29,534 nt of DNA from the IMG/VR virus record IMGVR_UViG_3300027836_000030, positions 1-29,534 of that record, one strand, 5' to 3'. Origin of the DNA: a virus. This document shows positions 5,194-28,842 of this stretch, in pieces (position 1 is the first letter of the stretch; the number at the start of each line of letters is the position of its first letter). The notes below the pieces were generated by a model. The model saw only the letters and a program-made list of their open reading frames with translations, had not been told where the DNA came from and ran no database searches. The position numbers and the translations under genes were made by a program.

Positions 5194-5643
5194 ATGCTTA
5201 ATGAACAAATCAAAATCACGGGTGCTGTCAGCATCGTTCTGCTCGACGAGAGCGGCAACGTCAAGGACAAGCGCGACATCAAGAACCTGGTGCTCGACAC
5301 TGGCAAGGGGTTCATCGCCGCCAGCATGCTCAAGACCACCACCAACAGTCCTGTGGCAATGACTCACATGGCTGTCGGTACTGACGGCACGTCTCCTGCT
5401 GGTGCCAACACTGGCCTGGGCACCGAGATCGGTCGCGTGGCCCTGTCTGGCGCGAGCTCAGCCGCCAACGTGGTGACCTACACCGCAACCTTCCCCGCTG
5501 GTACCGGCACTGGCGCATTGGTCGAGGCTGGCATCTTCAACGCTGGCTCCGCTGGTACTGCTCTTTGCCGCACCGCGTTCCCTGTGGTGAACAAGCAGGC
5601 CAACGACGCAATGGCTATCACCTGGACCATCACGGTTTCGTAG
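5194..5643 (+). CDS. Tail-fibre-locus structural protein
   Basis: This 149-residue, mostly beta protein opens with LNEQIKITGAVSIVLLDESG and contains MTHMAVGTDGTSPAG and a C-terminal strand region (AMAITWTITVS). Small proteins of this type are common in podovirus tail-fibre loci and resemble N-terminal attachment or spacer domains of longer fibres. The start is well supported: AAGGAG at 5181-5186 overlaps the previous stop codon and is 7 bases from the ATG. No enzymatic motif is visible. It is followed immediately by an HNH endonuclease gene, which may have been inserted between this gene and the next fibre gene. Confidence 0.65.
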   Translation: MLNEQIKITGAVSIVLLDESGNVKDKRDIKNLVLDTGKGFIAASMLKTTTNSPVAMTHMAVGTDGTSPAGANTGLGTEIGRVALSGASSAANVVTYTATFPAGTGTGALVEAGIFNAGSAGTALCRTAFPVVNKQANDAMAITWTITVS

Positions 5644-5651
5644 GTTTCAAC

Positions 5652-6101
5652 ATGGCTAACAAGTGGGACACACAGCACATGACCGTTGATGAGCGGTTCT
5701 TGCACTACACCAACAAGTCTGATGGCTGCTGGTTGTGGTCTGGAACCGTGAACAGCAATGGTTATGGCGTACTCGCCGTCGGCGGCGGGTCAAAGATGCT
5801 CGCCCATCGCTGGGCCTACGAGCACTTTGTTGCCCCTCTTGAAGGCAAGCATGCCTGTCATCGTTGCGACAATCCACTGTGCGTCAACCCTGAGCACCTG
5901 TTTGCAGGTACTGATGCTGACAACCACATCGACAAAGCAATGAAGCTTAGGGCTGGAAAGGCGCTTACTCCTGAGCAGGTGTTCGAGATCAAGTCTTTGG
6001 TGGCGCAGTCCGTGCCCTTGAACAGAATCGCGGAATCATTTTGCTGCTCGCGTAAGTCCATTCAGCGCATCAAGAACGGCTACGCCTGGAGGTTTGCATA
6101 A
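5652..6101 (+). CDS. HNH homing endonuclease with C-terminal helix-turn-helix
   Basis: This 149-residue protein carries a compact HNH motif near residues 69-84 (CHRCDNPLCVNPEHLF). His70, Asn79 and His82 are the likely metal and catalytic residues, and an upstream AHRW box lies at 51-54. Residues 106-146 (from LTPEQVFEIKSLV to QRIKNGYAW) look like a helix-turn-helix that would contact target DNA. The ATG at 5652 is preferred because it starts just after the upstream stop codon, although its SD is weak. The stop codon ends directly before the next gene's ATG. HNH genes of this type are selfish elements that cut alleles lacking them. Here it stands free between two fibre genes; there is no sign of an intron. 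It plays no role in the virion. Confidence 0.85.
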   Translation: MANKWDTQHMTVDERFLHYTNKSDGCWLWSGTVNSNGYGVLAVGGGSKMLAHRWAYEHFVAPLEGKHACHRCDNPLCVNPEHLFAGTDADNHIDKAMKLRAGKALTPEQVFEIKSLVAQSVPLNRIAESFCCSRKSIQRIKNGYAWRFA

Positions 6102-6512: not shown

Positions 6513-7007
6513 ATGTCACTTGTATTGGATGGCACCACCGGCGCATCGAAAGTCTCCGCAACATCGGCGCAGTTCCTGGTGAGCCAGGTTTGCTTCTTCG
6601 CTCGAGAGACGGCTCCTGACGGCTTCCTTAAGTGCAACGGTGCGGCAGTGTCCCGCACGGCCTACGCGGATCTGTTTGCCGCAATCGGCACGACTTACGG
6701 GGCTGGTGACGGCTCGACCACATTCTTGCTGCCTGATCTACGAGGCGAGTTCATTCGCGGGTGGGCTGATGGGCGGGCTGTTGATACGGGCCGAGCATTT
6801 GGCACTTTCCAAGACCAGGCCTTTGCAAGCCACACGCACACATCCGACTCACAACTCTGGTTTGGCTCTCGCTGGACAAGTAGTTACACGTCCACCCAAA
6901 TTGGGGCAGATGTAACTATTGGCCATAAAGCAGCAACAATTAATAGCACTGGCGGCACCGAAACTCGCCCCCGCAACGTGGCTCTGCTGGCCTGCATTAA
7001 GTACTGA
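6513..7007 (+). CDS. Tail collar domain fibre protein, copy 1
   Basis: This 164-residue protein opens with SLVLDGTTGASKVSA, a short segment often found at fibre-module starts. Residues 25-85 form a phage tail collar domain: PDGFLKCNGAAVSRTAYADL, followed by FLLPDLRGEFIRGW. Collar domains occur at the ends of short and long tail fibres and often contribute to receptor contact. A single HxH pair is seen (His107, His109), in the place where related fibres bind iron. The C-terminus ETRPRNVALLACIKY is almost identical to that of the second collar protein at 10858-11370. The middle of the C-terminal half differs strongly, as expected of a host-range region. AGGGGA precedes the ATG. Confidence 0.8.
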   Translation: MSLVLDGTTGASKVSATSAQFLVSQVCFFARETAPDGFLKCNGAAVSRTAYADLFAAIGTTYGAGDGSTTFLLPDLRGEFIRGWADGRAVDTGRAFGTFQDQAFASHTHTSDSQLWFGSRWTSSYTSTQIGADVTIGHKAATINSTGGTETRPRNVALLACIKY

Positions 7008-10857: not shown

Positions 10858-11370
10858 ATGCCGCAAACCAGAACCATGATTCAAGTCCAGCCCTCGGGGA
10901 TGGTGGCGCACTTCGCCAACTCAGCCCCTCCAGAAGGCTGGCTCAAGTGCAACGGTGCAGCGATCTCGCGCACTACGTTCTCCGACCTTTTCGAGGCCAT
11001 TGGCACTGCCTACGGGGCTGGCAACGGTTCCACGACCTTCAACGTGCCCGACCTCCGCGGTGAGTTCATCCGCGGTTGGGACGACGGCCGTGGCGCTGAT
11101 CCGAGTCGTGGATTTGGCAATGCTCAGGGCCATGCATTTGGTAGCCACGCCCACTCGGCATCCACGAACACGGTTGGCAACCACGTCCACTCGCAGGTGG
11201 GTGTTAACGAGCTTCAGCAATTTACCCAAGGTGGCGCAGGTTGGGCTTCCGGCGCTACCGCCAACACCGGCGGCGCTGGCTCGCACTCCCACAGCGTTAG
11301 CGTTGACGCTGCTGGCAGCTCCGAGACCCGCCCCCGCAACGTGTCCCTGTTGGCTTGCATTAAGTATTGA
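10858..11370 (+). CDS. Tail collar domain fibre protein, copy 2, with three HxH motifs
   Basis: This 170-residue protein has a collar domain at about residues 14-75 (PEGWLKCNGAAISRTTFSDL, then FNVPDLRGEFIRGW). A Gly/Ser-rich tip contains three HxH pairs (His97/99, His109/111, His143/145). In the T4 long tail fibre tip, repeated HxH motifs from three chains hold a row of iron ions. The same arrangement is inferred here. The last residues (ETRPRNVSLLACIKY) nearly match those of the protein at 6513-7007, so the two are paralogues. GGAGAAG precedes the ATG. It follows the S74 fibre gene and may form the tip of that or another fibre. Confidence 0.82.
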   Translation: MPQTRTMIQVQPSGMVAHFANSAPPEGWLKCNGAAISRTTFSDLFEAIGTAYGAGNGSTTFNVPDLRGEFIRGWDDGRGADPSRGFGNAQGHAFGSHAHSASTNTVGNHVHSQVGVNELQQFTQGGAGWASGATANTGGAGSHSHSVSVDAAGSSETRPRNVSLLACIKY

Positions 11371-14367: not shown

Positions 14368-16386
14368 ATGACTGCCATCAACATCAAAGCATTCCGAGGG
14401 CAGGTTCCGCGCACGTCCAGCCGACTCCTGACCCCCAATCGTGCAGCTCGCGCCATGAACTGCAAGCTCACCTCTGGGCGTCTCGACCCCCTCAAGGGCT
14501 TGGGCCTGGAGCTGACCTCGTCCGTGTCTCTGATCAAGAGCATGTTCCGCTACCGCCACTTCGGCGAGTCCGGCCCCACCGACAACTGGCTTGTTTGGAA
14601 CTCCGATGTTGATGCCGTGCTCTCGCCCTTGGCCAACGATTCCTTGGGTCGGGTGTACTTCACCTCCGAGGACTTCGAGCCCCGCATGACGACCTATGAG
14701 TCGGCTATTGCTGGTGCGAAGTACCCGGCTGCGTGGTTTGCCCTGGGCGTCTTTGCTCCCACGGTAGCCCCCACGGTTACGGCCGTTGGCGGTTCCGGTG
14801 CAGCAGAGGCTCGCGCATACGTCTACACCTACGTCACCCGCTTCGGCGAGGAGTCTGCGCCCAGCCCTGTCTCCGGCGTGATCAACGGCTTCACCAACAG
14901 CACCTGGACGGTCTCCGGCATGCAGGCCGCTCCGCCCAACAGTGGCACGGTGACAGATGCCCAGGCGAACAATCCATCTCCAGGTCGTGTCGAGGTCACC
15001 CTCAACAACGTCTTCGGCCTCGAGGCTCAGAGCGTGATCCGCTTCTCGGGCGTGACCGGTATGGAAGACCTCAACGGCACCCACCGGATTCTTAGCGTTG
15101 ACACTGCGAACAACCAGGTTGTGATCGCGCTGGTCACTTCTCAGACCTACGTCAGCGGCGGCTCCTGGTTCAAGGATGCTCCGCACAACACGACCGGCAT
15201 GGTCAAGCGCATCTACCGCACGGCTGGTGTTGTGGCCGACCTGCTGTTTGTTGAGGAGGTCGCAGTCAACACCACGTCCTACGTGGACGCCAAGACGGCG
15301 GCTCAGCTCGGCGAGACCCTGCCCTCCCTGGCGACCTTGATGCCTCCCAAGAACTTGACCAGCCTGATCTCGCTGCCCAACGGCTGCTTGGTCGGCCTGT
15401 CCGGTAACCAGTTGTGCTTCAGCGAGCCGTACAAGCCGCACTTCTGGCCAGATGCCAGCCGATACAGCTTCAGCGGCAACGGCGTTGCTCTGTGCCCGAC
15501 CGGCAACTCCGTGATCGTGCTGACCGAGTCTCTACCCATCCTGTTCACCGGCAGCGATCCCGCTGGCATGAGCCCCTCCGTGATGGAGACCTACGCCCCG
15601 TGTATTGCAAAGCGCGGCGTGGCCATCCTTGGCGGCGGTTGCTTGTACCCCAGCTATGACGGCTTGTGGCTGGCGACTCCTGCCCAGATCACCAACCTGA
15701 CCAAGAATCTGTATCGCGTTGACGAGTGGGCCTTGCTCAACCCCGAATCATTCGTCGCCTCCTTCCGTGACGGCCAGTACTACGCCTCGTTCCAGGATGT
15801 CAACGAGCGCCGAATTTTCATCATTGACGCGAACGAGCCTGATGGCTCTACCGAGGTTGACGAGTCCGCCGACGAGCTCTACTTCAACGAGTACGACGGC
15901 CGTCTCTACATCTCCAAGGGCAACAAGATCTACGCCTGGGACTCAAACCAGGGTTTCAGCTACGAGAGTGACTGGCTGAGCGCCGAAGTGCAGCTCGGCA
16001 AGCCCACGAACTTCTCCGTCGCTCAGGTACACGCCCAGTTCGCCAAGCAGGTTCCTCTGGACACTGGCCAGATCTCCGCGAACCAGTTGCTCATGCTGGA
16101 CACGGAGCTGGTGCGAGGGTCGTTCGCTGACGATGAGCTGCTGGTCCACGAGGTGTGCGGCTCCTTCATCGTCCCCGTGGTCCAGAACCAATCCAAGCGT
16201 GTGCAGTTCACCCTGTACACCAACAACGTGCCGGTGTTCACGCGAGAGGTCTTCTCCTCGAGCCCGTTCCGCCTGCCGTCTGGTTTTCGTGGAGAGATTG
16301 TCGCCATCGGTCTAAGTGCCACCGTGCCGACCTACTCGGTCACGATCGCCGAGTCCCTTGAAGAGCTCGGGGCGGCATCGGTATGA
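14368..16386 (+). CDS. Tail nozzle or tubular-type protein
   Basis: This 672-residue, almost all-beta protein opens with INIKAFRGQVPRTSSRLLTP, a start characteristic of short-tail nozzle-type proteins in podoviruses. A fibronectin-like part lies at about 130-180 (ARAYVYTYVTRFGEESAPSP). A repeated strand region follows at about 320-520, with LPNGCLVGLSGNQLCFSEPY, SVIVLTESLPILFTG and YPSYDGLWLATP, which resembles a beta-propeller. The C-terminal part is beta-rich. P22 gp10 and T7 gp12 play the nozzle role and have similar size and architecture. AAGGGG precedes the ATG. The last bases overlap the next gene by four (ATGA). The family match is by pattern, not by search. Confidence 0.78.
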   Translation: MTAINIKAFRGQVPRTSSRLLTPNRAARAMNCKLTSGRLDPLKGLGLELTSSVSLIKSMFRYRHFGESGPTDNWLVWNSDVDAVLSPLANDSLGRVYFTSEDFEPRMTTYESAIAGAKYPAAWFALGVFAPTVAPTVTAVGGSGAAEARAYVYTYVTRFGEESAPSPVSGVINGFTNSTWTVSGMQAAPPNSGTVTDAQANNPSPGRVEVTLNNVFGLEAQSVIRFSGVTGMEDLNGTHRILSVDTANNQVVIALVTSQTYVSGGSWFKDAPHNTTGMVKRIYRTAGVVADLLFVEEVAVNTTSYVDAKTAAQLGETLPSLATLMPPKNLTSLISLPNGCLVGLSGNQLCFSEPYKPHFWPDASRYSFSGNGVALCPTGNSVIVLTESLPILFTGSDPAGMSPSVMETYAPCIAKRGVAILGGGCLYPSYDGLWLATPAQITNLTKNLYRVDEWALLNPESFVASFRDGQYYASFQDVNERRIFIIDANEPDGSTEVDESADELYFNEYDGRLYISKGNKIYAWDSNQGFSYESDWLSAEVQLGKPTNFSVAQVHAQFAKQVPLDTGQISANQLLMLDTELVRGSFADDELLVHEVCGSFIVPVVQNQSKRVQFTLYTNNVPVFTREVFSSSPFRLPSGFRGEIVAIGLSATVPTYSVTIAESLEELGAASV

Positions 16387-16897: not shown

Positions 16898-16933
16898 GCG
16901 CATAACCCCTCCTCCCAAATAGAATTGGTCTCT

Positions 16934-17542
16934 ATGAGCAACCTCCAGCAATTCAGAAGCGCGATGGTCAAATATCTTGGCCAGGAGCTGACGCCGGAGG
17001 TCGCTGCTGCGATCGAGACCGAAGCCTTTCAGACTCCTGACAACTCCCACAACCCCAAGAAGTTCGGGTCCAAGGAGTACAAGGGCATGTTCTTCCAGGC
17101 GGAGAAGTTCGCCGACATCGTTGACGAGATCCATCCCTTGCACGAGGCTCACTTTCAGGAGACTGAGAAGCACCGCCTCGGGTTCGGTCTGAACATGGAT
17201 TACGACCAGCTCAAGTCTTACGAGCGGGCTGGGCGCATGGTGCAATTCACCTGCCGGGACATTGAGTCCGGCAAGCTCGTGGGCAACATTCGCATGTACA
17301 TCGACACCAGTCTCCACACTGGCACGTTGTACGCGACCGAGGATACGTACTACGTCCTGCCTGAGTTCAGGCTTGGATTCGCCGCCCTCCGGTTTTGGCA
17401 GTTCATGGAGGACTGCTTGAAATCAATCGGGGTGCGGGAGATCCGCACTGATAGCAAGGTACTGAACAAGGTACACAAGCTCAACGAGTACTGTGGCTAC
17501 AAACATGTGGCCAATAAGTACGTCAAGGTATTTCAGGAGTGA
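16934..17542 (+). CDS. GNAT-like acyltransferase, possible internal virion protein A
   Basis: This 202-residue protein has a GNAT-type core at about residues 100-190: strand text LVGNIRMYIDTSLHTGTLYA, then YYVLPEFRLGFAALRFWQFM at the place of the acetyl-CoA-binding loop and helix, then VREIRTDSK and YCGYKHVANKYVKVF. The usual R/QxxGxG/A loop appears only in modified form (RLGFAA), so catalytic activity is uncertain. T7 gp13, the first of the internal virion gene group, was also predicted to have an acyltransferase fold. Here too the gene directly precedes the ejection-protein genes. The start is the ATG at 16934; the TTG at 16925 has no SD. Either an enzyme acting in the host or a virion assembly factor is possible. 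Confidence 0.6.
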   Translation: MSNLQQFRSAMVKYLGQELTPEVAAAIETEAFQTPDNSHNPKKFGSKEYKGMFFQAEKFADIVDEIHPLHEAHFQETEKHRLGFGLNMDYDQLKSYERAGRMVQFTCRDIESGKLVGNIRMYIDTSLHTGTLYATEDTYYVLPEFRLGFAALRFWQFMEDCLKSIGVREIRTDSKVLNKVHKLNEYCGYKHVANKYVKVFQE

Positions 17543-17545
17543 CCT

Positions 17546-18559
17546 ATGTGTAAGGACGCGCCAGCACCAGATCCGCAGATCGGCGAAGCCGCCAAAAAGA
17601 ACGCCGCGATCGCCGAGGAGGCGATGAACTTCTACAAGTCGGTCTACAAGAACGACATCCTTCCTATGCAAAAGGAAGACCTCGCGCTTCGCAAGGGTCT
17701 GATCACTGACTTGCGAGCTTCGATGCAGCAGCAGGACAAGTTTGCCCGCGAGCAGAACGAATACTACAAAGAGGTGTACCAGCCCATCGAGCGCAAGAGC
17801 GCCTCCGATGCAATGGACTACGACTCTGAGGCGAACGTCAACCGTCGCATGGGTATCGCTGCCAGCTCGGTGAACAGCCAGTTCTCGAACGCTGCCAACC
17901 AGAACCGCAGGGCTCTTGCCGCTTACGGCATCAACCCCAACTCTGGCGCTTTCGCTCGAGCCAACAACACGCTGACCACGCAGCAGGCGATCGCCTCCGC
18001 ATCCGGTCAGACTGGGGCGGCTTTCGACACCGAAGACCGAGCCATCGCGCTTCGTGCTGGCGTGGCCAACTTCGGTCGCAACATGCCTAACACGGCGGCT
18101 CAGTACTACTCCAACGCTGGGGCGACTGCATCCAACGCGGCGAACATCTCGAGCCAGGGCATGGCCAACGTGAACCAGAACGCGTCAAACGTCGGGATGG
18201 GCTTCAACACCGGAATCCAAGGCAACGCCTCTTCCGCGAACATGTTGACCAACCTGTACAACTCGAATATGCAGGGTCACATGGCCAAGATGCAAATGAT
18301 CGGCGACCTCGCTGGCGCTGCTGGCACGGCTTACGGCATGAGGCGGGCTGACGGCGGGATCATCCACAAGGGCAAGGGCGCTGTTCGCGGACCTGGCGGA
18401 CCTGTGGACGACCAGGTTCCAGCCATGTTGTCTGACGGTGAGTACGTTCTCCCGGCCGACACGGTCAAGCGCATCGGCAAGAAGAAGCTCGATGCAATCG
18501 TCAAGAAGACGCACACGCCCGCTGCCAAACAGCGCCGTGGCTTGAAGGGGAAACGATAA
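17546..18559 (+). CDS. Internal virion (ejection) protein, gp14-like
   Basis: This 337-residue protein has a long helical, Ala/Asn/Gln-rich body. The opening is CKDAPAPDPQIGEAAKKNAA, and long repeats of Asn, Ala and Ser follow (for example NAGATASNAANISSQGMANV). The C-terminal segment (about 268-320), ADGGIIHKGKGAVRGPGGPV then QVPAMLSDGEYVLPADTV, is a motif that recurs in podovirus internal or ejected proteins. T7 gp14 has a similar size class and gene place and forms the outer-membrane pore of the ejection channel. AGGAGTGA precedes the ATG. The stop and the next start share one base. The call depends mainly on gene order and the C-terminal motif. Confidence 0.7.
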   Translation: MCKDAPAPDPQIGEAAKKNAAIAEEAMNFYKSVYKNDILPMQKEDLALRKGLITDLRASMQQQDKFAREQNEYYKEVYQPIERKSASDAMDYDSEANVNRRMGIAASSVNSQFSNAANQNRRALAAYGINPNSGAFARANNTLTTQQAIASASGQTGAAFDTEDRAIALRAGVANFGRNMPNTAAQYYSNAGATASNAANISSQGMANVNQNASNVGMGFNTGIQGNASSANMLTNLYNSNMQGHMAKMQMIGDLAGAAGTAYGMRRADGGIIHKGKGAVRGPGGPVDDQVPAMLSDGEYVLPADTVKRIGKKKLDAIVKKTHTPAAKQRRGLKGKR

Positions 18560-19662
18560 TGTCTGGACTCGCAGCAGCAATTACCGGCTTCGTTGGCGGC
18601 TACGCCAAGGGCAAGCAAATCAAGTCTGACCTCGAGGACGCAGAGTCCCGCCGCGGTCTCCAGAACCTGCAAAAGCAGTCTGCCGAGCTCACCATTGAGC
18701 GTGAGAAGCAGATGGCAGAACTGTCCAAGCAGATCGGCGACAAGGTCATGAACTTCAAGCCAGCCACGCTGGATGATGTTGAGTCCTTCGACACCCACTA
18801 CAACGAGATGGAAGGTCTGCTGGTCAAGCAAGCCGCCATCGCGGGCAAAGATCCTCTGGCGGTCAAAGGCCAGATGGACTCTCTTCGCCGCGAGAAGTAC
18901 GCCGAGCGCGTGTTCGCCGCAACCAAGATGTTCGAGACGGGCAACGAGGCAGGCTTCGAGATCTTGAAGCCGGTCTACAACCGCCTGTTCAAGGACGGCA
19001 ACATGCTCATGGGCGGCGTCTACAACAAGGCTGACGACAGCTTTGACATCCGCTACATGGGCAAGGGTGGCGAAGAGAAGACCATCACCGTGGGCCGTGA
19101 GGCGCTGGTCAAGCAGTACCTACCAATGGGCCTGAATACGGGTGACGCCTTGAAGCTCGCTCTCAAAGAGCTTGAGGTGGACGAAGAGCGCAAGTTCCAG
19201 ACCGGCCGCGACACCGTAAAGATGGAGTTCCAGGCTGGCGAGGGCGCAAAGGATCGCGCATCGGCCGAGAAGCGCACCGGCATGCAGATCGCTGGAGATA
19301 AAGCTGTCGCTGGTCTGCGCCGTTCCAACGCTGGCGAGGACCGTGCGCTCGACCGCATCGAGAGGAACGAGGACGATGTCCGCAAGGGTCTTGCCGCCGC
19401 CTTCGGCTTTGACTCTAAGTTCTCAACACCGGATAAGCTGGCTGAGTTCAACACCAAGGCAACTGCCGGTATGAACATCTGGCGAGCCACCCAAAAGTAC
19501 GCTGGCCAGTCGCTGTCCGAGTACGACGTTGCGACGATCGTCGGTGGCATCCAGTCCGGCAAAGCTCGAGTTGCTCCAGCTCCTGGTCTCAAGGGCTTCA
19601 ACGTGGTGGACTTTGGCGGCGCTCGTGCCGTGGTGCCGGAGGGCATTGTTCGTCTGAAGTAA
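18559..19662 (+). CDS. Internal virion (ejection) protein, gp15-like
   Basis: This 367-residue protein starts with a weakly hydrophobic Gly/Ala helix (SGLAAAITGFVGGYAKGK). Long charged helices follow (LQNLQKQSAELTIEREKQMA, ELSKQIGDKV, and a second set at about 205-275 with many Arg and Glu). A small beta-rich end closes it (LKGFNVVDFGGARAVVPEG). There is no catalytic motif. It sits between the gp14-like gene and the giant gene, which corresponds to T7 gp15, a periplasmic tunnel component. A 1-base overlap (TAATG) ties its translation to the gp14-like gene. Sequence conservation in this class is low, so the role rests on order, composition and helical character. Confidence 0.6.
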   Translation: MSGLAAAITGFVGGYAKGKQIKSDLEDAESRRGLQNLQKQSAELTIEREKQMAELSKQIGDKVMNFKPATLDDVESFDTHYNEMEGLLVKQAAIAGKDPLAVKGQMDSLRREKYAERVFAATKMFETGNEAGFEILKPVYNRLFKDGNMLMGGVYNKADDSFDIRYMGKGGEEKTITVGREALVKQYLPMGLNTGDALKLALKELEVDEERKFQTGRDTVKMEFQAGEGAKDRASAEKRTGMQIAGDKAVAGLRRSNAGEDRALDRIERNEDDVRKGLAAAFGFDSKFSTPDKLAEFNTKATAGMNIWRATQKYAGQSLSEYDVATIVGGIQSGKARVAPAPGLKGFNVVDFGGARAVVPEGIVRLK

Positions 19663-19683
19663 GAATCAAGTAAGGAAAATTCG

Positions 19684-22600
19684 ATGGCCACGCCGCTGAT
19701 CAACCTGAGTGACGACTCAATTTTTGGAAATTCTCAGGGTGATTCAGCACCCCGCCGCGGTCTGAGCACCTCGTCGCAGAGGGTCAACCTCAACGACGAT
19801 GCGATGTTCAAGACGGCCGAAGAGGCCCGTTCGACCGACGTGCAGTCGGGCAAGTACGTTTCCATCTTCGACCAGGAAGCCAAGATCGAGCCGCCCAAGC
19901 GCGGCATCGGTCGCATGATCGACGACACCATCACCAGCGTTGTCGGCACGAACAAGGCCAACCCCGAAGACATCCGTCCCGATGGCCTGGCCAGGGTCCG
20001 TCAGGAGGCTGCGCAGACCGAGCAGCAGGTTGGACAGCGCCGGGTGGAGTTGGGCACCGATGACCCAGATCGCGGCTACGCGATGCAGACCTTCGACTCC
20101 GCTGCCGCTGGCATGGCCAACATTGTCGGCGTGACGATGGAGTACGCCGGTCGCCAGTTCGGCATCAAGAAGATGGAAGAGCTGGGCCAGAAGGCTCAGG
20201 TTGATGGCGCTGCGCTCACCCCCAAAGAGCAGGACACCATCCAGAAGGTTTTTGGCGGTGTGGGCTCTGCCCTCCCGATCGTTGCTGGCGGCATGCTCGC
20301 TGGCGGCGGTTTGCTCGCTGCTGGCGCTGGTACTGGTGTGGCTCTTGCTGGCGCATCCGCAGTCGGCGCTGCTCTGGAAGCCCCCTCGATCGCACAAGAA
20401 GCCTACGAGGGCGCGCTCAAGGAGACCGGCAACGACGCTCGCGCCGAGACCCAAGGCTACAAGGCTGCTGCCTTGAACCTGCCCATCAGCTTCATCATGA
20501 ACCGCATCGGCATCTTCGGTGGCGGCGGTGGCCGCGCCAAGCAGACCGGCAAAGCCATCCTGGCCGAAGGCACTGAGGAAGGTACCCAGAAGGCACTGAC
20601 CAACTACTTGGGCTACCAGCCCACGGGTGAGGGCGTGTCTGAGGATGCGGTCATCGGCGGCTTGACTGGCGGCGTCCTGAAGCAGATCACCTTCCGCCCC
20701 GACGCTCCCGAGTCCAAGCCCAGCCAGAAGCCTGCCGGTGAAGAGACTGGCAATCTGACCAGCGAAGACACCAGTGGCTCACCAAGTGAGCCTGTTGGTG
20801 ATTTGCCCGAGGGCGTCCAGACCCTGGGCTTCAAAGAGGTCTACCAGACCCTCAAGACCAAGCCAGCGGTTGCAGCCGTCCTCTACCAAGAGGCGACCAC
20901 GCCCGAGCAGAAGGAGCTGGTCAAGCGAGCCGTCGATCGCGCCGAGATCCAGAACGAGTTCCAAGAAGCTCTTGGAGATGCGAACCTGCTCAATGACACT
21001 CGTCAAGAGATGCAGGCGTTCCCAGAGTTCACTGACTCGCTGGCGTTCTCCCTGACCAGTTTCGTGAATGACATGCCCCCGGCCAACATCTTCAAGGCCG
21101 AGCGCCGTCGCGCACCCTCTGAGCAAGAGGTGAACTCCGCCTTCGATGCAGCCTGGGAAGACTCCAACTACGTGGCCTCCCTCGAGGCAGAAGCCGAGAC
21201 CATTGCCGCTGAGCGCGAAGAGCGTCAGGGTCGCCGCCCTGGTTTCCAGGCGAACACCCAGCCCAACAACGAGATGGAAGCTCTGGTCTCCAACGCGGAG
21301 TCAGGGTTTACCCGACCCAATACCACCGAGGGCATGACCCAGACCGAGGCGACCGAGGCATCCTTGCCAGAGTCCCTGCGTGGTGCCCGTGTCAACGACG
21401 GCAACCGAGTCTTACTCGAGGCTTACTTCGAAGAGTCGCTGGGCACGATCTTGCCCCGCAACCCATCGAAGACCCGCACCCGCGCCTTGGCGAAGCTCCA
21501 GAAACAGATGGAGATGGTCGGCTTCCCGCCCGAGCAGATCCAGGTGGCCATCAATACCGGCTCGTTTGACAACGCTTCGGCACTGGCTGACGTTCTGTCG
21601 CCACCCACGCAGGCCGTTTCTGCGCCCGTGGAGGCCCCTGCCGAGCGCGTGGTGGCCCCAAGTACCCCAGCACCCGCAACAGCGCCTTCTAGCCCCGCTC
21701 CTGCGGCTGTGGAAAGCTTTGCTCCCAATGCTGGTACGGCGGGAAGTAGTGTTCAGTTTTCCGAGGGTGATGGCGCAAACCTGTTTACGCCAGAAGCTGT
21801 TATGACCTCCGGGGACATGACTGTCAGCCGAACCGGCGCATCAACATCGGTGACTTTCGCAAACCCCATTAAGACCGGCGACATCAGCATCTCTGGGGTC
21901 TCTGTCAATCAAGAGAGAACCAGGTTTAACGCCACATCTCCTCGGTCTGGTTCTGTGGTCGTTCTGGTTGACGACAACTTCCTTGAGGTGGATGCGGTTG
22001 AGGCTGGCAAGTTCGCCAGGATCTCCAAGGCAGATGGCCCTAAGCCCAACTCCGCAGAGGAGAGGGCAATCCGAAGGGCTATTGGCGACGCCGCCGTTGA
22101 TGCGTTTTTCAGCACCCCCAAGGCGAATGTCCAAGCCGCTGTCTCAGACGTTATGCTTGGGCGTGACATCTCTCCAGAGGTAGAGCGCATCAGCCAAGCA
22201 TTTGGCGATCGCTTTATGGCCTCTCCTGACGCTGGTACGCCTGACCAGGTCGCCGCCCAGACACAAGAGCAAGCCCCAGAAGCTGCTGAACCTAGGGTTA
22301 ACCCTGAGATCCAGCGAGCCAAGGATGACGTGTTCGACGCTGCTGCCGAACTGGCGGACGTGTTCGCTGACGTGATCTCTGTTCGCAAGAACATCACCGG
22401 CCAGCAGTACACCGCCAAGGATCTGCCTCCGGCGATCGCCAAGGTCATGACCCGTCTGGCCGATCTTGGATACGTGAAGTTCAAGGACATGGTCCGCGAG
22501 CTGATGAAGCGCATGCGAGCCAGCAAGGACTGGGCACCCCTGGCCGACCAGGTCACCCCGTTCATGCTGCGTCAGGCGTACAAGAAGCTGCCCAAGTTCG

Positions 22601-25600
22601 AGGGCAAGGAAGTTGATCGCGATGTCGATAGCGTCAAGGGCGGCGAAGTTGCCATCCTGATCTCAGAAGGCCGCGAGAAGACCGAGGCCGAAGAGACCAA
22701 GGAAGCCGAGGACGAAGTCACCACGGCTGGCATGAGCTTCACAAAGGCGGAGCCGAAGAAGCCCGTCAAGAAGCAGGCCAAGGCCGAACGGAAATCTGAC
22801 GAGGTGGACACCCCGGCCGAGTACGGCTTGAAGGAGAGGTACCAGCTCCCCAAGGGCAAACAGGCTTCCCTGGGTCTTGAGCGCTTCCAGCGCGACGACG
22901 AAACGCCGCAGATGAAGACTTTGCGCGGTCGCCTCGAAGGCATCGTGCGCAGCGCCACCCAGATCAAGTTTTTCGAAGACACCATCCTGATGCTGCAAAA
23001 GCAGATCACCGATGTCGAGTCCAAGATGAGGGCGCTGGACACCCTGACCGTGACCGAGGGTGGCAAGACCACGACTTTCCGCGCTCGCAACGAGGAGGAC
23101 GAGAACCCTGGCCTGTGGGCGACCAACGACATGAACGCCTACGACCGTTTCATCGACGGTCAGTTGCCCAACAAGCCCACCACTAAGATGGCTCTGATGG
23201 ATCAGCGCCGCATGCTGGTCGAGGAGCTCGGGCGTGTGCGCGACAAGTCCACCGCCAGCCGTGCCCGTCTGTACATGCGCTCCATGTCTCGCATGATGGA
23301 TCAGATGATGACCGTCACGCAGAACGCCATGTCTGCCGGTATGCCAGCGGAACAGGCTCGCGCTGTGTTCGGCAAGTTCTACCAGGCCATCTCCTTCCGC
23401 GACACCAAGCCCGCTCCCGAAGCCGACACCGTCGAAGCCGACCAGGACCAAGACGCTCAGGTCGATGCGTTCGAGGGCGCCAAGGCGGCTATGGGCATCG
23501 TCTCCGACTTCCGCAACAAGCAGATCACTCAGCGCCAGCTCGACGATCTGATCGACCGCGGTGTTCGTGATGGCGACTTCACCTACATGGATGTGGGTGA
23601 CGCCTTCCGCGCTTTCAACATGAGCGTTCCTCGCGGCGTCATGGACACGAGCAGCCAGTTGTCGGTGCGCAAGCGCCTCAAAGACTTCATGGCCGAGAAC
23701 GGCAACACCACCGCTTCCCGCATGGAGTGGATGGTGAACATGGAGAAGGTGGTCAAGTCCAACCCCGGTTCCCTTGGCACTAAGTTCACCGCCGAAGAGG
23801 TGGCGTACTACAACATGTGGAAGCAGGACCGCGAAGCGCTGCGCAGCCGCCGCAAGGTGACTGATGACATGCGAGAAGGTCGCACTGCCGATGAGGCGTT
23901 CCCCAACCTGCTGTTCAACCGTTTCCGCTTGAGCCAGGTGCGCAACCCAGACTCGATCAACGAGGCCGAGTCCACCCGCACAGCAGTTCGAGCCATCGCC
24001 GGTGGCGATCCTGACACCGTTTACTTCGAGGACATTGCCTACGCACTGCGCCGCCGCCCCGACCTTGAGGCAGACATCTTCGAGTCGATGACTGCTGACG
24101 AAGGTCGCCAGTTCAAAGAGTGGGTTGCCCGCAAGAAAGCCGCCATTGAGCAAGAGTCGATGATGCTCGCCAAGGTCGAGGCCTTCACCACCCTGCGCAA
24201 CTTGGGTCACGCTGACGCCATCCTGCTGGATTCTAAGCCTGTTCGAGATGAGGTGGTTCAGGAGACGACAGCCGCCGAGGTTGTGTCTCCCCAGACCCTT
24301 ATGGACGAGGCTGTCATTGCCATTGAGAGCTTTGCTGCGGCGAACGGCATCCGGGTCTTTGACATCAAGAGCGTAGAGGGCCGCTCCAGAAGCGGTGATC
24401 GTGGCTTCTCGAACTACACCTTCACCCTCAAAGATGGCCGCAAGCTGCAAGGCGAAAACCTTGACCTGTTCCCAGGAATCAGTGAGGTGAGCAAGGCTTC
24501 TGACTACGGCATCGCCATCCCAGAGGTGATGAACGCCGCCCTGAAAAACGATGTGGCCAAGGTCTTTGACCTGGTTGCTCGTGGCGATAAGCGAGCCAAG
24601 CCCCGCACGACTACACGAGATGTGCCAGCCGCTCCCGCAGGAGGCCGTCCAAACACCACCCCAAGTGAGCGTGAGCGCATCTATACCAGCCTGGTCAATG
24701 CCGAGCTGAGCGAGCTGCCTGCGGTGATGGACGCCATCGCCCGACTGAACTCCGTTCTGGTGGGTCGCGTCGATCCCGAGACGGGTGAGATCCTGACCGA
24801 CGAGCAGGCCGAGCAGTACGCCGCTGACTTCGTAGACTCGCTGGCCCAGCGGGCAATGATGGGCTCCGTGGTTTCGGCCACTGGTGCTGAGATGTCGCAG
24901 TTCGGCGCAAGCACTGGCTTCGGCGCTGATGCTCCTGCCGGTCTCAAGCGTGGCGAGTTCGGCTTCGGCGAAACCGTCGAGGATGCCGGTGATGCTATGC
25001 GAGCCAGCGGTCCCCAGAGCACGACCGACCTGACCGCAGAGGAGCAGCTCCAGGACGAGATGATCTCCGAGGCTGACCTCATGGAAGCTGGCCGCGAGAT
25101 GAGCGAAGCCGGTACCGAAGAGGACGCCGAGGGTGAGTCCGCCACCGCCGCAGAGCAAGAGACCGCCACCGAGAAAGAGGCTGGCACTCGCAGGGCCGCA
25201 GTCCCTGGCTCCTTGGTCGCCAAACAGGAGTACCGCTTCCGCCGTGCCCCGTTCTCCGGAGAGCTCACCAACTCTATCGTCGCCGAGCACGTTCTCAAGA
25301 TCGTCTCGAAGTGGACTGGTGCGCCACGCATCAACGTGGTCCCCAACGTGCAGATGCTGCCCGAGGGTATCCGTGAGCAGGTCATGTCCAAGCTGTCGAA
25401 GGACTCTGGCGCTGCCGGTCTGTTCGTCAACGGCGAGGTCTACATCTTCTCCGACCACATCAGCAGCCTGTCCGACGCTGAGTTCACCCTGTTCCACGAG
25501 ACCTACGGCCACTACGGCATGCGGGCTTTCCTGGGTGCGAAGTTCGACTCGTTTCTCGAGCTGGCCTACAACACCAACACCCGCATCCGTGCGGAGGCTG

Positions 25601-28600
25601 ACGCGCTGATGGCCAGCAAGCCGATCGGCAAGCTCGAAGCCATCGACGAAGTGCTCTCGGACATGGCTGGTGCCAATGAGCCGATGGGCCTGGTCAAGCA
25701 GTGGCTGGGCAAGGTCATCGCTGGCCTGCGCCAAATCGGCATGAACCGCGTTGCTGGCTGGATGTCTGCCAAGACCGACGCCGAGATCGGCTATACCCTG
25801 ATGATGGCCCGCAAGGCTGTGCAAGAGGGTGCGCCTACCATCTTCAACGGCGCTCCTGATGAGGTTCGCTTGGCCGAGGCCCGTCTGCCCTACGAGATGT
25901 TCTCCTCTCGTGACGGCAACACCACGGCGTACACCCGCTACAACCCGATCACCCAGACCTACGCGGTATTCACTGCCACCGGCAATGACATCCGCAAGGG
26001 CTGGAACACCACGATCGTCACCGAGTTCGAAGATGCCATCGCGCTCATGCGCAAGAGCGGCAAGGTCGATCGTCGTCTGCGCAGCGGCCTGTACATCGAC
26101 AACAAGATCCCCTCGGACCTCCAGAAGATCCCTGAGTTCCGCATCGCCACGGACGACCTGTCCTTGACGACCGCCGAGGGCTTGAAGAACTACGGCCGAC
26201 TGATCAAGCGCAACGCGATCATCTTCTTCCAGAACGAGTACAAGGCCGTCCACGAGGTCGCCTCGTACCTGCGTTCCAAGGGTCGCATGTCTGACGCCTT
26301 CGACCCGACCCGTGACCTCGAAGGTCTGCATGAGCGCAAGACTGCGGTGAAGCTGGAGAACTTGAACCGCCGCTTCGTGAAGCCCCTGCTCGAGCTCGCG
26401 GGCGAGGCTGGCAAGCTTGGTGCCAACTCCGACACCGTCAACAAGTACCTGGTCGCCAAACACGCCGAGGAGCGCAACAATCACATCGCCAAGATCAATA
26501 AGGGCATGCCTGACGGCGGCTCTGGCATGAGGACCAAGGAGGCCAAAGACTTCCTCAAGTCCATCCAGAACGAGAAGTTCATGCCTAAGCTCGAAGAGAT
26601 CTCGGCACTGCTCAAGCAGTTGTCTGATCAGAAGCTGGCGATGATGAAAGAGGCTGGCCTCATCAGCCACGATGAGTACATGGCTCGCGCCCAGTACAAG
26701 AACTACGTGAACCTGTCCGGCGTGAAGGAAGGCCTAGACGCATTCGATGACCTGGCCGTCCTGGCTGGCAGCAGCAAGTTCTCCACCCGCAAGGACAAGC
26801 GAGCTCTCGGTCGTGGCGATATGGCCACCGACGTGTTGGCCCGCACCATCCAGTCGGCCGAGGCTGCTGTGCTCAACTCCAGCAAGAACCGCGTCAAGCA
26901 GAAGATCCTGGCCATGTTCGAGGTCAACTACGACCCCGACTTCGTTTCCATCAACAAGCAGGCGTACAAGCGTGTGCTCGATGAGAACGGCGAGGTCACC
27001 GAGAAGATGGATGAGACCTACATCCGCAACAAGAACGTGATGGTCGTCCATGTGAACGGTCGCCCGGTCACGATTGAGTTCAAGAAGACGGGCAAGGGCA
27101 CGTTTGCCGATGCCATCCACGGCGCGATCTACCCATCCGAGGCTGATTCCACCGTGGCTCGGGCGCTGGGCCGCTACAACCGCATCGTCGGTCAGATGCT
27201 CACCACCTGGAACCCAGTGTGGGTGCTGGTCAACTTCGTGCGTGACGCCCAGACCCTGTACTACAACTCGGTGGCCGACAAGCGCGTGACCAAACAGATG
27301 GCCAAGGAGATGGTCAAGACCATCCCCGCCGCCATGAAGGCCACGTTCCACTACGCCACTGATGGCCGTCGCGGCAACAGCGCAGACCCAGACATGATCC
27401 GCGCCTTCCGCGAGATGCGTGAGGCCGGTGGTGCCACCAGCTTCCTGAACCTTCAAGGTCTGGAGAAGCAGGTCAGCGCCATCGAGGACATGATCAATCC
27501 TCAGAAGAAGAGCGACATCGTGAAGGTTGGTCAGTTCCTAGCCGACAAGCTCGAGGAGTTCAACATCCCAATCGAACTGGCCCCACGTCTCGCCGCCTAC
27601 AAGGTGATGCGCGACAACGGCTACTCGAGGGACGAGGCCGCTCAGTACGCTGGCGAGATCACGGTGAACTTCAACATGCGCGGCTCCTCCAAGTTCATGC
27701 GCAACATGTACTTGTTCTTCAACCCCGCTGTGCAGGGCTCGGCCAAGCTGGTCAAGCTCGCATCCGAGAACCCCAAGACGTTCAGCAAGATCGCAATGGG
27801 CATGGCTGCTGTGGGCTTCATCTCCAGCGTGATCGGTCGCGCAATGGGTGGCGAGGACGAGGACGGCATCGACAAGATCGACAAGGTGCCCGTGTTCAAG
27901 CGAGCCACTACGCTGATCCTGTCGCCTGACGTGCCTGGTGCTGCCATCCCTGTGCCCTATGGCTGGAACGCCTTCTTCGCCGCTGGCGTGTTCATGGCCG
28001 ACACCTTGTGGGCTGGCGCTCAACCAGCTGCAACGAGCGCCAAGCGTATCGCTCAGTCTGCTTTCGAGGGCTTCTCGCCCATCGGTAGCGCTGGCCTGTC
28101 GTCCAACTCCAACCTGGGCACGGTCTTCAAAGGCCTGTCGCCCACGGCTGCTCTGCCGCTGCTGGAGATCATGCTCAACGAGAACCGCTTCGGCGCTCCA
28201 ATCGTCAAAGAGGCTGGCCTCTTCGGTGGTGGCAAGCGACCCAACGCGGAGATGGCATTCGACTCGGCGTCCCCGATCTCGGCTGGCATCTTCAAGGGCT
28301 TGAACCGTGCAACCGGTGGCGACTACGTCAACCCTGGCGCGATCGACGTGAACCCCGGCATCGTGGATCACTTGATCAGCTCGTACATCCCAGGCCTGGT
28401 TTCCGAGAGCTACAAGTTCGCTTCGTGGGCTACCAAGAGCGCACTGGGCTACGACACCAAGTCGGCGTCCATCCCGTTGGTTGACCGCCTCACGGCCAAG
28501 GTTCCCGAGAGCTACGACTTCGGCATGTACCGCCGCGCCAAGGAGTACGTGGCCACCAAGTACGATGACTTCAAGCTCAACCCCGAGCGCCGCGACAAGA

Positions 28601-28842
28601 TCCTTGCCGATTTCCCAGGTCTGGGCGGTGCCAAGGGTGTGCTCGACACGACCGACAGCCGCATCCAGGACCTGCGCGAGTACCGCAAGAACGTGGAGCG
28701 CGACGAGTCGATGTCTCGCGAGGACAAGGTGAAGATGATCAACGAGGCTCGTGCGCGGGAGAAGGAGATCGTCACCCGTGCCGTGCGCACCCTGCTCGAG
28801 AACAGCCCCGCGCTGAAGCCGGTCCTGATTGAAAGCGAGTGA
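19684..28842 (+). CDS. Giant polyvalent internal virion protein with HExxGH and LPD38-like regions
   Basis: This 3052-residue protein (about 330 kDa) occupies the place of T7 gp16 but is more than twice its size. A Gly/Ala-rich hydrophobic segment at about 193-232 could insert in membrane. A Pro/Ala linker lies at about 640-680, and an acidic/basic linker at about 990-1050. His1938, Glu1939 and His1943 form HETYGH, with EAIDEVLSD near 1985-1993 as a possible third metal ligand; this is a zincin-like motif with non-standard spacing. From about 2490 an LPD38-like region (MLTTWNPVWVLVNFVRDAQT, MYLFFNPAVQG) is followed by hydrophobic segments near 2700-2720 and 2760-2780. Such polyvalent proteins are thought to be ejected with the DNA to protect it or act on host defences. 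No lytic transglycosylase motif was found. TAAGGAAA precedes the ATG. Confidence 0.75.
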   Translation: MATPLINLSDDSIFGNSQGDSAPRRGLSTSSQRVNLNDDAMFKTAEEARSTDVQSGKYVSIFDQEAKIEPPKRGIGRMIDDTITSVVGTNKANPEDIRPDGLARVRQEAAQTEQQVGQRRVELGTDDPDRGYAMQTFDSAAAGMANIVGVTMEYAGRQFGIKKMEELGQKAQVDGAALTPKEQDTIQKVFGGVGSALPIVAGGMLAGGGLLAAGAGTGVALAGASAVGAALEAPSIAQEAYEGALKETGNDARAETQGYKAAALNLPISFIMNRIGIFGGGGGRAKQTGKAILAEGTEEGTQKALTNYLGYQPTGEGVSEDAVIGGLTGGVLKQITFRPDAPESKPSQKPAGEETGNLTSEDTSGSPSEPVGDLPEGVQTLGFKEVYQTLKTKPAVAAVLYQEATTPEQKELVKRAVDRAEIQNEFQEALGDANLLNDTRQEMQAFPEFTDSLAFSLTSFVNDMPPANIFKAERRRAPSEQEVNSAFDAAWEDSNYVASLEAEAETIAAEREERQGRRPGFQANTQPNNEMEALVSNAESGFTRPNTTEGMTQTEATEASLPESLRGARVNDGNRVLLEAYFEESLGTILPRNPSKTRTRALAKLQKQMEMVGFPPEQIQVAINTGSFDNASALADVLSPPTQAVSAPVEAPAERVVAPSTPAPATAPSSPAPAAVESFAPNAGTAGSSVQFSEGDGANLFTPEAVMTSGDMTVSRTGASTSVTFANPIKTGDISISGVSVNQERTRFNATSPRSGSVVVLVDDNFLEVDAVEAGKFARISKADGPKPNSAEERAIRRAIGDAAVDAFFSTPKANVQAAVSDVMLGRDISPEVERISQAFGDRFMASPDAGTPDQVAAQTQEQAPEAAEPRVNPEIQRAKDDVFDAAAELADVFADVISVRKNITGQQYTAKDLPPAIAKVMTRLADLGYVKFKDMVRELMKRMRASKDWAPLADQVTPFMLRQAYKKLPKFEGKEVDRDVDSVKGGEVAILISEGREKTEAEETKEAEDEVTTAGMSFTKAEPKKPVKKQAKAERKSDEVDTPAEYGLKERYQLPKGKQASLGLERFQRDDETPQMKTLRGRLEGIVRSATQIKFFEDTILMLQKQITDVESKMRALDTLTVTEGGKTTTFRARNEEDENPGLWATNDMNAYDRFIDGQLPNKPTTKMALMDQRRMLVEELGRVRDKSTASRARLYMRSMSRMMDQMMTVTQNAMSAGMPAEQARAVFGKFYQAISFRDTKPAPEADTVEADQDQDAQVDAFEGAKAAMGIVSDFRNKQITQRQLDDLIDRGVRDGDFTYMDVGDAFRAFNMSVPRGVMDTSSQLSVRKRLKDFMAENGNTTASRMEWMVNMEKVVKSNPGSLGTKFTAEEVAYYNMWKQDREALRSRRKVTDDMREGRTADEAFPNLLFNRFRLSQVRNPDSINEAESTRTAVRAIAGGDPDTVYFEDIAYALRRRPDLEADIFESMTADEGRQFKEWVARKKAAIEQESMMLAKVEAFTTLRNLGHADAILLDSKPVRDEVVQETTAAEVVSPQTLMDEAVIAIESFAAANGIRVFDIKSVEGRSRSGDRGFSNYTFTLKDGRKLQGENLDLFPGISEVSKASDYGIAIPEVMNAALKNDVAKVFDLVARGDKRAKPRTTTRDVPAAPAGGRPNTTPSERERIYTSLVNAELSELPAVMDAIARLNSVLVGRVDPETGEILTDEQAEQYAADFVDSLAQRAMMGSVVSATGAEMSQFGASTGFGADAPAGLKRGEFGFGETVEDAGDAMRASGPQSTTDLTAEEQLQDEMISEADLMEAGREMSEAGTEEDAEGESATAAEQETATEKEAGTRRAAVPGSLVAKQEYRFRRAPFSGELTNSIVAEHVLKIVSKWTGAPRINVVPNVQMLPEGIREQVMSKLSKDSGAAGLFVNGEVYIFSDHISSLSDAEFTLFHETYGHYGMRAFLGAKFDSFLELAYNTNTRIRAEADALMASKPIGKLEAIDEVLSDMAGANEPMGLVKQWLGKVIAGLRQIGMNRVAGWMSAKTDAEIGYTLMMARKAVQEGAPTIFNGAPDEVRLAEARLPYEMFSSRDGNTTAYTRYNPITQTYAVFTATGNDIRKGWNTTIVTEFEDAIALMRKSGKVDRRLRSGLYIDNKIPSDLQKIPEFRIATDDLSLTTAEGLKNYGRLIKRNAIIFFQNEYKAVHEVASYLRSKGRMSDAFDPTRDLEGLHERKTAVKLENLNRRFVKPLLELAGEAGKLGANSDTVNKYLVAKHAEERNNHIAKINKGMPDGGSGMRTKEAKDFLKSIQNEKFMPKLEEISALLKQLSDQKLAMMKEAGLISHDEYMARAQYKNYVNLSGVKEGLDAFDDLAVLAGSSKFSTRKDKRALGRGDMATDVLARTIQSAEAAVLNSSKNRVKQKILAMFEVNYDPDFVSINKQAYKRVLDENGEVTEKMDETYIRNKNVMVVHVNGRPVTIEFKKTGKGTFADAIHGAIYPSEADSTVARALGRYNRIVGQMLTTWNPVWVLVNFVRDAQTLYYNSVADKRVTKQMAKEMVKTIPAAMKATFHYATDGRRGNSADPDMIRAFREMREAGGATSFLNLQGLEKQVSAIEDMINPQKKSDIVKVGQFLADKLEEFNIPIELAPRLAAYKVMRDNGYSRDEAAQYAGEITVNFNMRGSSKFMRNMYLFFNPAVQGSAKLVKLASENPKTFSKIAMGMAAVGFISSVIGRAMGGEDEDGIDKIDKVPVFKRATTLILSPDVPGAAIPVPYGWNAFFAAGVFMADTLWAGAQPAATSAKRIAQSAFEGFSPIGSAGLSSNSNLGTVFKGLSPTAALPLLEIMLNENRFGAPIVKEAGLFGGGKRPNAEMAFDSASPISAGIFKGLNRATGGDYVNPGAIDVNPGIVDHLISSYIPGLVSESYKFASWATKSALGYDTKSASIPLVDRLTAKVPESYDFGMYRRAKEYVATKYDDFKLNPERRDKILADFPGLGGAKGVLDTTDSRIQDLREYRKNVERDESMSREDKVKMINEARAREKEIVTRAVRTLLENSPALKPVLIESE

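Follow-up and report, generated by a model that had tools for sequence, protein, structure and literature searches.

The question raised by this locus is whether the HExxGH motif in a giant phage protein marks a working metallopeptidase and, if so, what such an enzyme would be doing there. The window, meaning the whole stretch of DNA analysed, is a complete virus record of 29,534 bases. The giant gene begins with ATG about 8 bases downstream of a Shine-Dalgarno-like AAGGA (19672-19676); its coordinates, its 3052 residues and the HETYGH at residues 1938-1943 are as the first-pass annotation gave them. The features discussed here are the following.

14368..16386, plus strand: internal virion protein (phrog_511), homologous to the JC1 'head closure' protein gp61 and to an internal virion protein of a Vibrio podophage
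16925..17542, plus strand: GNAT-type acetyltransferase lying among structural genes, an arrangement also seen in Bcep22-like phages
17546..18559, plus strand: virion structural protein (phrog_8003, by PHROG)
18559..19662, plus strand: virion structural protein (phrog_9667, weak, by PHROG)
19684..28842, plus strand: giant polyvalent protein gene, open reading frame of 3052 aa
20074..20703, plus strand: N-terminal conserved region, residues 131-340, 69% identical to the closest relative (L013), with a putative membrane segment
21124..22923, plus strand: linker region, residues 481-1080, rich in Pro, Ser, Thr and Glu and diverging fast
22924..24213, plus strand: conserved middle domain, residues 1081-1510, common to L013-L020, function unassigned
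25231..25878, plus strand: zincin-like metallopeptidase domain of the HExxxH clade, residues 1850-2065, very probable from alignment, AF2 and hhalign
25252..25260, plus strand: FSG, residues 1857-1859, [FY]S junction motif at the N-terminal metallopeptidase border, a lead only
25495..25512, plus strand: HETYGH, residues 1938-1943, with two predicted metal-ligand histidines and the predicted general base Glu1939, from conservation
25648..25650, plus strand: Glu1989, predicted third metal ligand on the next helix, from conservation and AF2
25900..25911, plus strand: FSSR, residues 2073-2076, [FY]S junction motif at the C-terminal metallopeptidase border, a lead only
26251..28839, plus strand: conserved C-terminal module, residues 2190-3052, of which 2470-2925 are predicted mainly alpha-helical
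27877..28425, plus strand: LPD38 (PF18857), residues 2732-2914, by Pfam

HETYGH is the sole HExxH or HExxxH within the 3052 residues, of which 14 are histidine, and an HE...H is expected by chance 0.005 times. In a 9-sequence alignment the only invariant columns are H1938, E1939, H1943 and E1989; the rows were picked by HE...H, leaving E1989 as the independent evidence there. Scanning with the domain alignment yielded viral loci (80 of 243) together with 78 loci from bacterial genomes. Across the 180-row profile alignment H1938 and E1939 are each present in 179 rows, H1943 in 178 and E1989 in 175, although most rows were retrieved by a pattern with HE..[GA]H, which favours the first three residues. 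Glu1989, which lies 46 residues past His1943 and had been called conserved-looking from the single sequence, is part of neither pattern and occurs in 175 of the 177 rows having a residue at that column. Among the 25 rows without the exact HE..[GA]H pattern, 18 carry HExxxH and 5 HExxH, and the spacing from the second histidine to the glutamate in the 180-row set is mostly 38-66 with a mode of 47. The 70-row alignment used for folding has H1938, E1939, H1943, G1945 and E1989 as its sole invariant columns. Judged by conservation, HExxGH is a real active-site signature and no chance near-miss.

The first-pass annotation had taken the spacing of the motif as a reason to doubt a peptidase. This objection does not stand, because Iyer et al. 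2017 (PMC5512222) described HEXXXH metallopeptidases in polyvalent proteins, DPP III (M49) has HExxGH, and MATCAP/TMCP1 has HExxxH together with a putative third ligand in an EEG motif. MATCAP/TMCP1 (PDB 7z5g) and DPP III are verified HExxxH and HExxGH metallopeptidases with a downstream Glu ligand; they differ from the window domain in giving no significant sequence or fold match, MATCAP standing at E 0.52 and the M49 profile having no Pfam match in the giant protein at E<=1. Canonical HExxH motifs (HEAFH, HELTH and HESIH) precede the LPD38 module in L171 8466-22469 (BcepIL02 gp70), L007 and L010. There HExxH occupies the slot that HExxxH has in the window, so motif length varies within one architecture. 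Among the relatives with HExxxH is the isolated Vibrio phage 252E42.2, where the motif reads HEILAH.

The structure prediction proposed earlier for this region was carried out with AF2 on the 70-row alignment (mean pLDDT 85.6, pTM 0.77) and gave a helix, strands, a long helix bearing HETYGH and then a helix with E1989. In model numbering the strands are 33-37, 63-66 and 69-73, the motif helix is 80-115 and the E1989 helix 134-147; the borders of the domain are of low confidence. The predicted topology fits the zincin core as defined in PMC5512222. Profile comparison with hhalign against the metallopeptidase alignment of the N4 virion RNA polymerase (vRNAP; 32 N4-type domains) gave 95.3% and E 2.4e-8, and with both motifs masked still 89.9% and E 1.7e-6, whereas the 20 controls with permuted columns ranged from E 0.12 to 0.74 and the reversed control stood at 0.054. 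As the match goes well beyond these controls, the window domain is homologous to the N4 domain, which Iyer et al. called zincin-like (PMC5512222).

The PDB fold search with the metallopeptidase domain gave no match at E<=0.001, the top entry being MATCAP at E 0.52, suggestive only; in a viral fold library the best matches were large polyvalent proteins. In PDB sequence-profile searches, profile A1 matched designed helical repeats alone, rejected as compositional, and profile A3 gave nothing credible, while Pfam on 70 metallopeptidase domains gave scattered matches with no family covering the domain. With conservation, predicted topology and profile homology in agreement, the metalloenzyme proposed by the first-pass annotation is borne out as a domain, very probably a zincin-like metallopeptidase. 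Metal binding and proteolysis would follow from the conserved residues; no catalytic assay of any HExxxH polyvalent metallopeptidase was found in the literature.

The remainder of the protein places it among the polyvalent proteins, as had been proposed. LPD38 is the sole confident Pfam domain (E 1.1e-23, 84.8 bits against a curated cut-off of 27), E<=1 adding just a chance TetR_C_27 match, and the gene lies in a late, structural neighbourhood. The LPD38-like region of the first-pass annotation is thus confirmed in kind and shifted in place, its true extent (2732-2914) being slightly more C-terminal. Of the strongest hydrophobic stretches, one is at 2700-2721; the other, a Gly/Ala-rich stretch at 189-237 near the N-terminus, had gone unmentioned. 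The C-terminal structure prediction gave a mainly alpha-helical fold, and the fold search of that module returned no match. PHROG families 14770, 616 and 10691, all of unknown function, match the C-terminal third, 14770 extending up to residue 1923. Identity to L013 is highest at 131-340, 1851-2200 and 2451-2930 and drops to 22-32% at 481-1080. The middle domain carries the motifs AFPNLLF and RRPDL and gave no Pfam, NCBIfam or convincing PDB match by profile search. An antisense ORF of 1335 aa (minus strand, 22663-26670) lies inside the giant gene; it was rejected as a gene, having no Pfam match and shrinking to 963, 716, 286 and 329 open codons in four relatives, and is probably a by-product of codon usage.

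LPD38 was present in all 14 family members scanned, and the 8 phage loci with the C-terminal module that were examined all have an HExxH or HExxxH N-terminal to it. In the listed relatives the metallopeptidase comes first and the gap to the module is 56 to 668 residues. Other cassettes are mixed among the 14 members: SLT (in 3 of them), ART-PolyVal, InPase, FtsK gamma, RadC, helicase and Eco57I methylase. The window protein showed none of these cassettes, and the metallopeptidase is the only catalytic domain that the domain scans recognised in it. The giant protein is therefore a new member of a known polyvalent, ejection-type kind, made of a hydrophobic N-terminal region, a metallopeptidase and a helical LPD38 module. 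Homologues of the C-terminal module also appear for Shiga-toxin phages in the search tables.

The genes ahead of the giant one encode the internal virion protein, a DUF5754 protein, the GNAT acetyltransferase and two structural proteins. BcepIL02 has the order internal virion protein, structural protein, acyltransferase, structural proteins and giant protein, and JC1 has the same order as BcepIL02. JC1 gp69, of 4515 aa, was detected in purified virions by mass spectrometry with 51 unique peptides (PMC9144972); because this giant homologue is syntenic, delivery in the virion, as earlier suggested, is probable by analogy for the window protein. The 'gp16 position' assigned to the gene stands as far as position goes, with an internal virion protein, a GNAT and two structural genes preceding it, and like T7 gp16 the product is a large protein encoded at the end of a group of ejection-type genes. 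It differs from gp16 in being more than twice as long, in carrying a metallopeptidase and in having no transglycosylase (SLT, T7-gp16 type) domain found by Pfam. Envelope crossing by the giant protein is plausible from its hydrophobic N-terminus. By analogy of position only, the stretch 189-237 recalls the putative membrane helices 224-278 of N4 vRNAP, whose N-terminal domain enters nanodiscs according to a 2025 N4 structure preprint.

Besides MATCAP/TMCP1, DPP III and T7 gp16, three known systems are close. The HEXXXH clade of Iyer et al. 2017 (PMC5512222) shares HExxxH on the first core helix, a Glu on the next helix, a small sheet and residence in giant phage proteins beside late genes; no difference in kind from the window domain was found in this comparison, made with the published description rather than with clade alignments. 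HExxGH is in this way tied to a described enzyme family that is represented in a very large number of giant phage proteins. The Bcep22-like (Lessievirus) giants JC1 gp69 and BcepIL02 gp70 share the gene order and a metallopeptidase-like HExxH region just before the module, which in BcepIL02 gp70 is a homologous LPD38 module (E about 1e-43). They differ in their size (4.5-4.7 kaa), in transglycosylase, helicase and methylase annotations that are absent from the window protein and, for BcepIL02 gp70, in a canonical HEAFH 200 residues before the shared module. N4 vRNAP gp50 contains in subdomain C1 the homologous metallopeptidase domain (hhalign E 2e-8), followed by a large C-terminal region. It has HELVH, with the glutamate at position 2229, instead of HExxxH, and its polymerase domain was not found in the window protein (no Pfam or PHROG match); its C2 compared with the LPD38 module gave hhalign E 0.33, the same as permuted controls, and thus no detectable homology.

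The reading preferred here is that of a packaged polyvalent protein of a Bcep22/JC1-like short-tailed phage whose metallopeptidase cuts its own chain, which we hold to have an even chance of being right. The giant protein would travel inside the head and leave it together with the DNA. The hydrophobic N-terminal region, the HExxxH-clade metallopeptidase and the alpha-helical LPD38 module would form a fixed chassis with a replaceable region between them. His1938, His1943 and Glu1989 would bind the metal and Glu1939 would activate water; the enzyme would then cut its own giant chain within the flexible inter-module linkers, during head assembly or after ejection, and the modules would be freed or seated. 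Packaging in this phage and cutting in cis are both inferred. Self-processing, itself evenly balanced between right and wrong, is the most economical role because the peptidase belongs to the chassis, the linkers combine great length with strong divergence and, according to Iyer et al. (PMC5512222), processing of P1 DdrB has been reported. The low-confidence domain borders in the AF2 model, the linkers as the fastest-diverging parts and an [FY]S enrichment at the borders were counted in its favour. Self-cutting is not universal, since N4 vRNAP has a domain of this type and is packaged without being processed (PMC5512222).

The enrichment concerns [FY]S followed by R/K/L/M/S/N/T/I/V, which occurs 22 times against 4.6 expected directly after the metallopeptidase domain and 35 times against 9.3 in the 40 residues before it, with background levels elsewhere. 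In 29 phage-type members of less than 50% identity, FS leads the 400 dipeptides at the C-terminal border (14 against 2.4, p 2.6e-7); at the N-terminal border the first two places among the 400 go to SR and FS. The enrichment of [FY]S holds in flanks sharing no 4-mer (18 against 6.4 and 20 against 7.6, p ~1e-4 each), and a further peak lies 40-60 residues ahead of the C-terminal module (8 against 1.4). DIRFSR and VALFSREG are border examples from L001-L170. The motif could mark cleavage sites or fusion seams. It is kept as a lead only, since the choice of bins and borders followed inspection of the data, some of the sites belong to the conserved ends of other domains, and the copies in the window itself, FSG at 1857 and FSSR at 2073, are imperfect. 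Decidedly unlikely, on present evidence, is the general statement that common [F/Y]-S-(R/K/L) junctions of polyvalent proteins are cut by the built-in HExxxH/HExxH metallopeptidase; if true, that enzyme would split a single ejected chain into separate tools. Taken together, the conserved residues and the [FY]S junctions make self-processing by built-in peptidases testable. N4-type proteins (alignment A6) have a nearly invariant DMFSNLLFN after the metallopeptidase domain that resembles the [FY]S motif, and N4 vRNAP is packaged whole.

The fate of N4 vRNAP also underlies the first alternative, a structural or regulatory metal site that aids packaging or controls a neighbouring domain, with proteolysis absent or vestigial. 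Packaging in N4 requires the region that contains the metallopeptidase domain, yet the protein remains in one piece (PMC5512222), and the 2025 preprint, in the part consulted, describes an autoinhibitory C-terminal domain including the HExxH subdomain and does not mention protease activity. Without catalysis it would be hard to account for the almost complete conservation of Glu1939, the general base, alongside the three ligands, and the reading is rated unlikely.

An injected effector, in which the metallopeptidase cuts a host protein (for example of defence or of the envelope) soon after entry instead of the giant protein itself, was named as a possibility by Iyer et al. (PMC5512222) and accords with the ART, methylase, helicase and transglycosylase cassettes of the relatives, which make delivery of active enzymes a family habit. 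Host-aimed effectors are usually replaceable, however, whereas this metallopeptidase belongs to the chassis across a wide diversity of phages and prophages, and no host target is known; this explanation too is doubtful. The anti-defence role once attached to the window protein loses its footing, as the helicase, methylase and ART domains suggesting it in relatives were not found here by Pfam and further domain scans. A DarB-type anti-restriction factor shielding the incoming DNA is very improbable. In its favour, the Bcep22-like homologues carry a DarB-like annotation, and DarB of P1 belongs to the virion and is believed to act during entry; but the methylase and helicase domains on which that annotation rests did not turn up in the window protein, and the part shared with those homologues is the C-terminal module.

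Self-processing by the packaged giant thus remains the preferred reading. Elsewhere in the window, an HNH homing-type endonuclease gene (5643-6101) is inserted among tail genes and overlaps the end of the preceding ORF. Two tail-collar domain genes (6513-7007 and 10858-11370) share one strand, with about 4 kb separating them, and are possibly a duplication.
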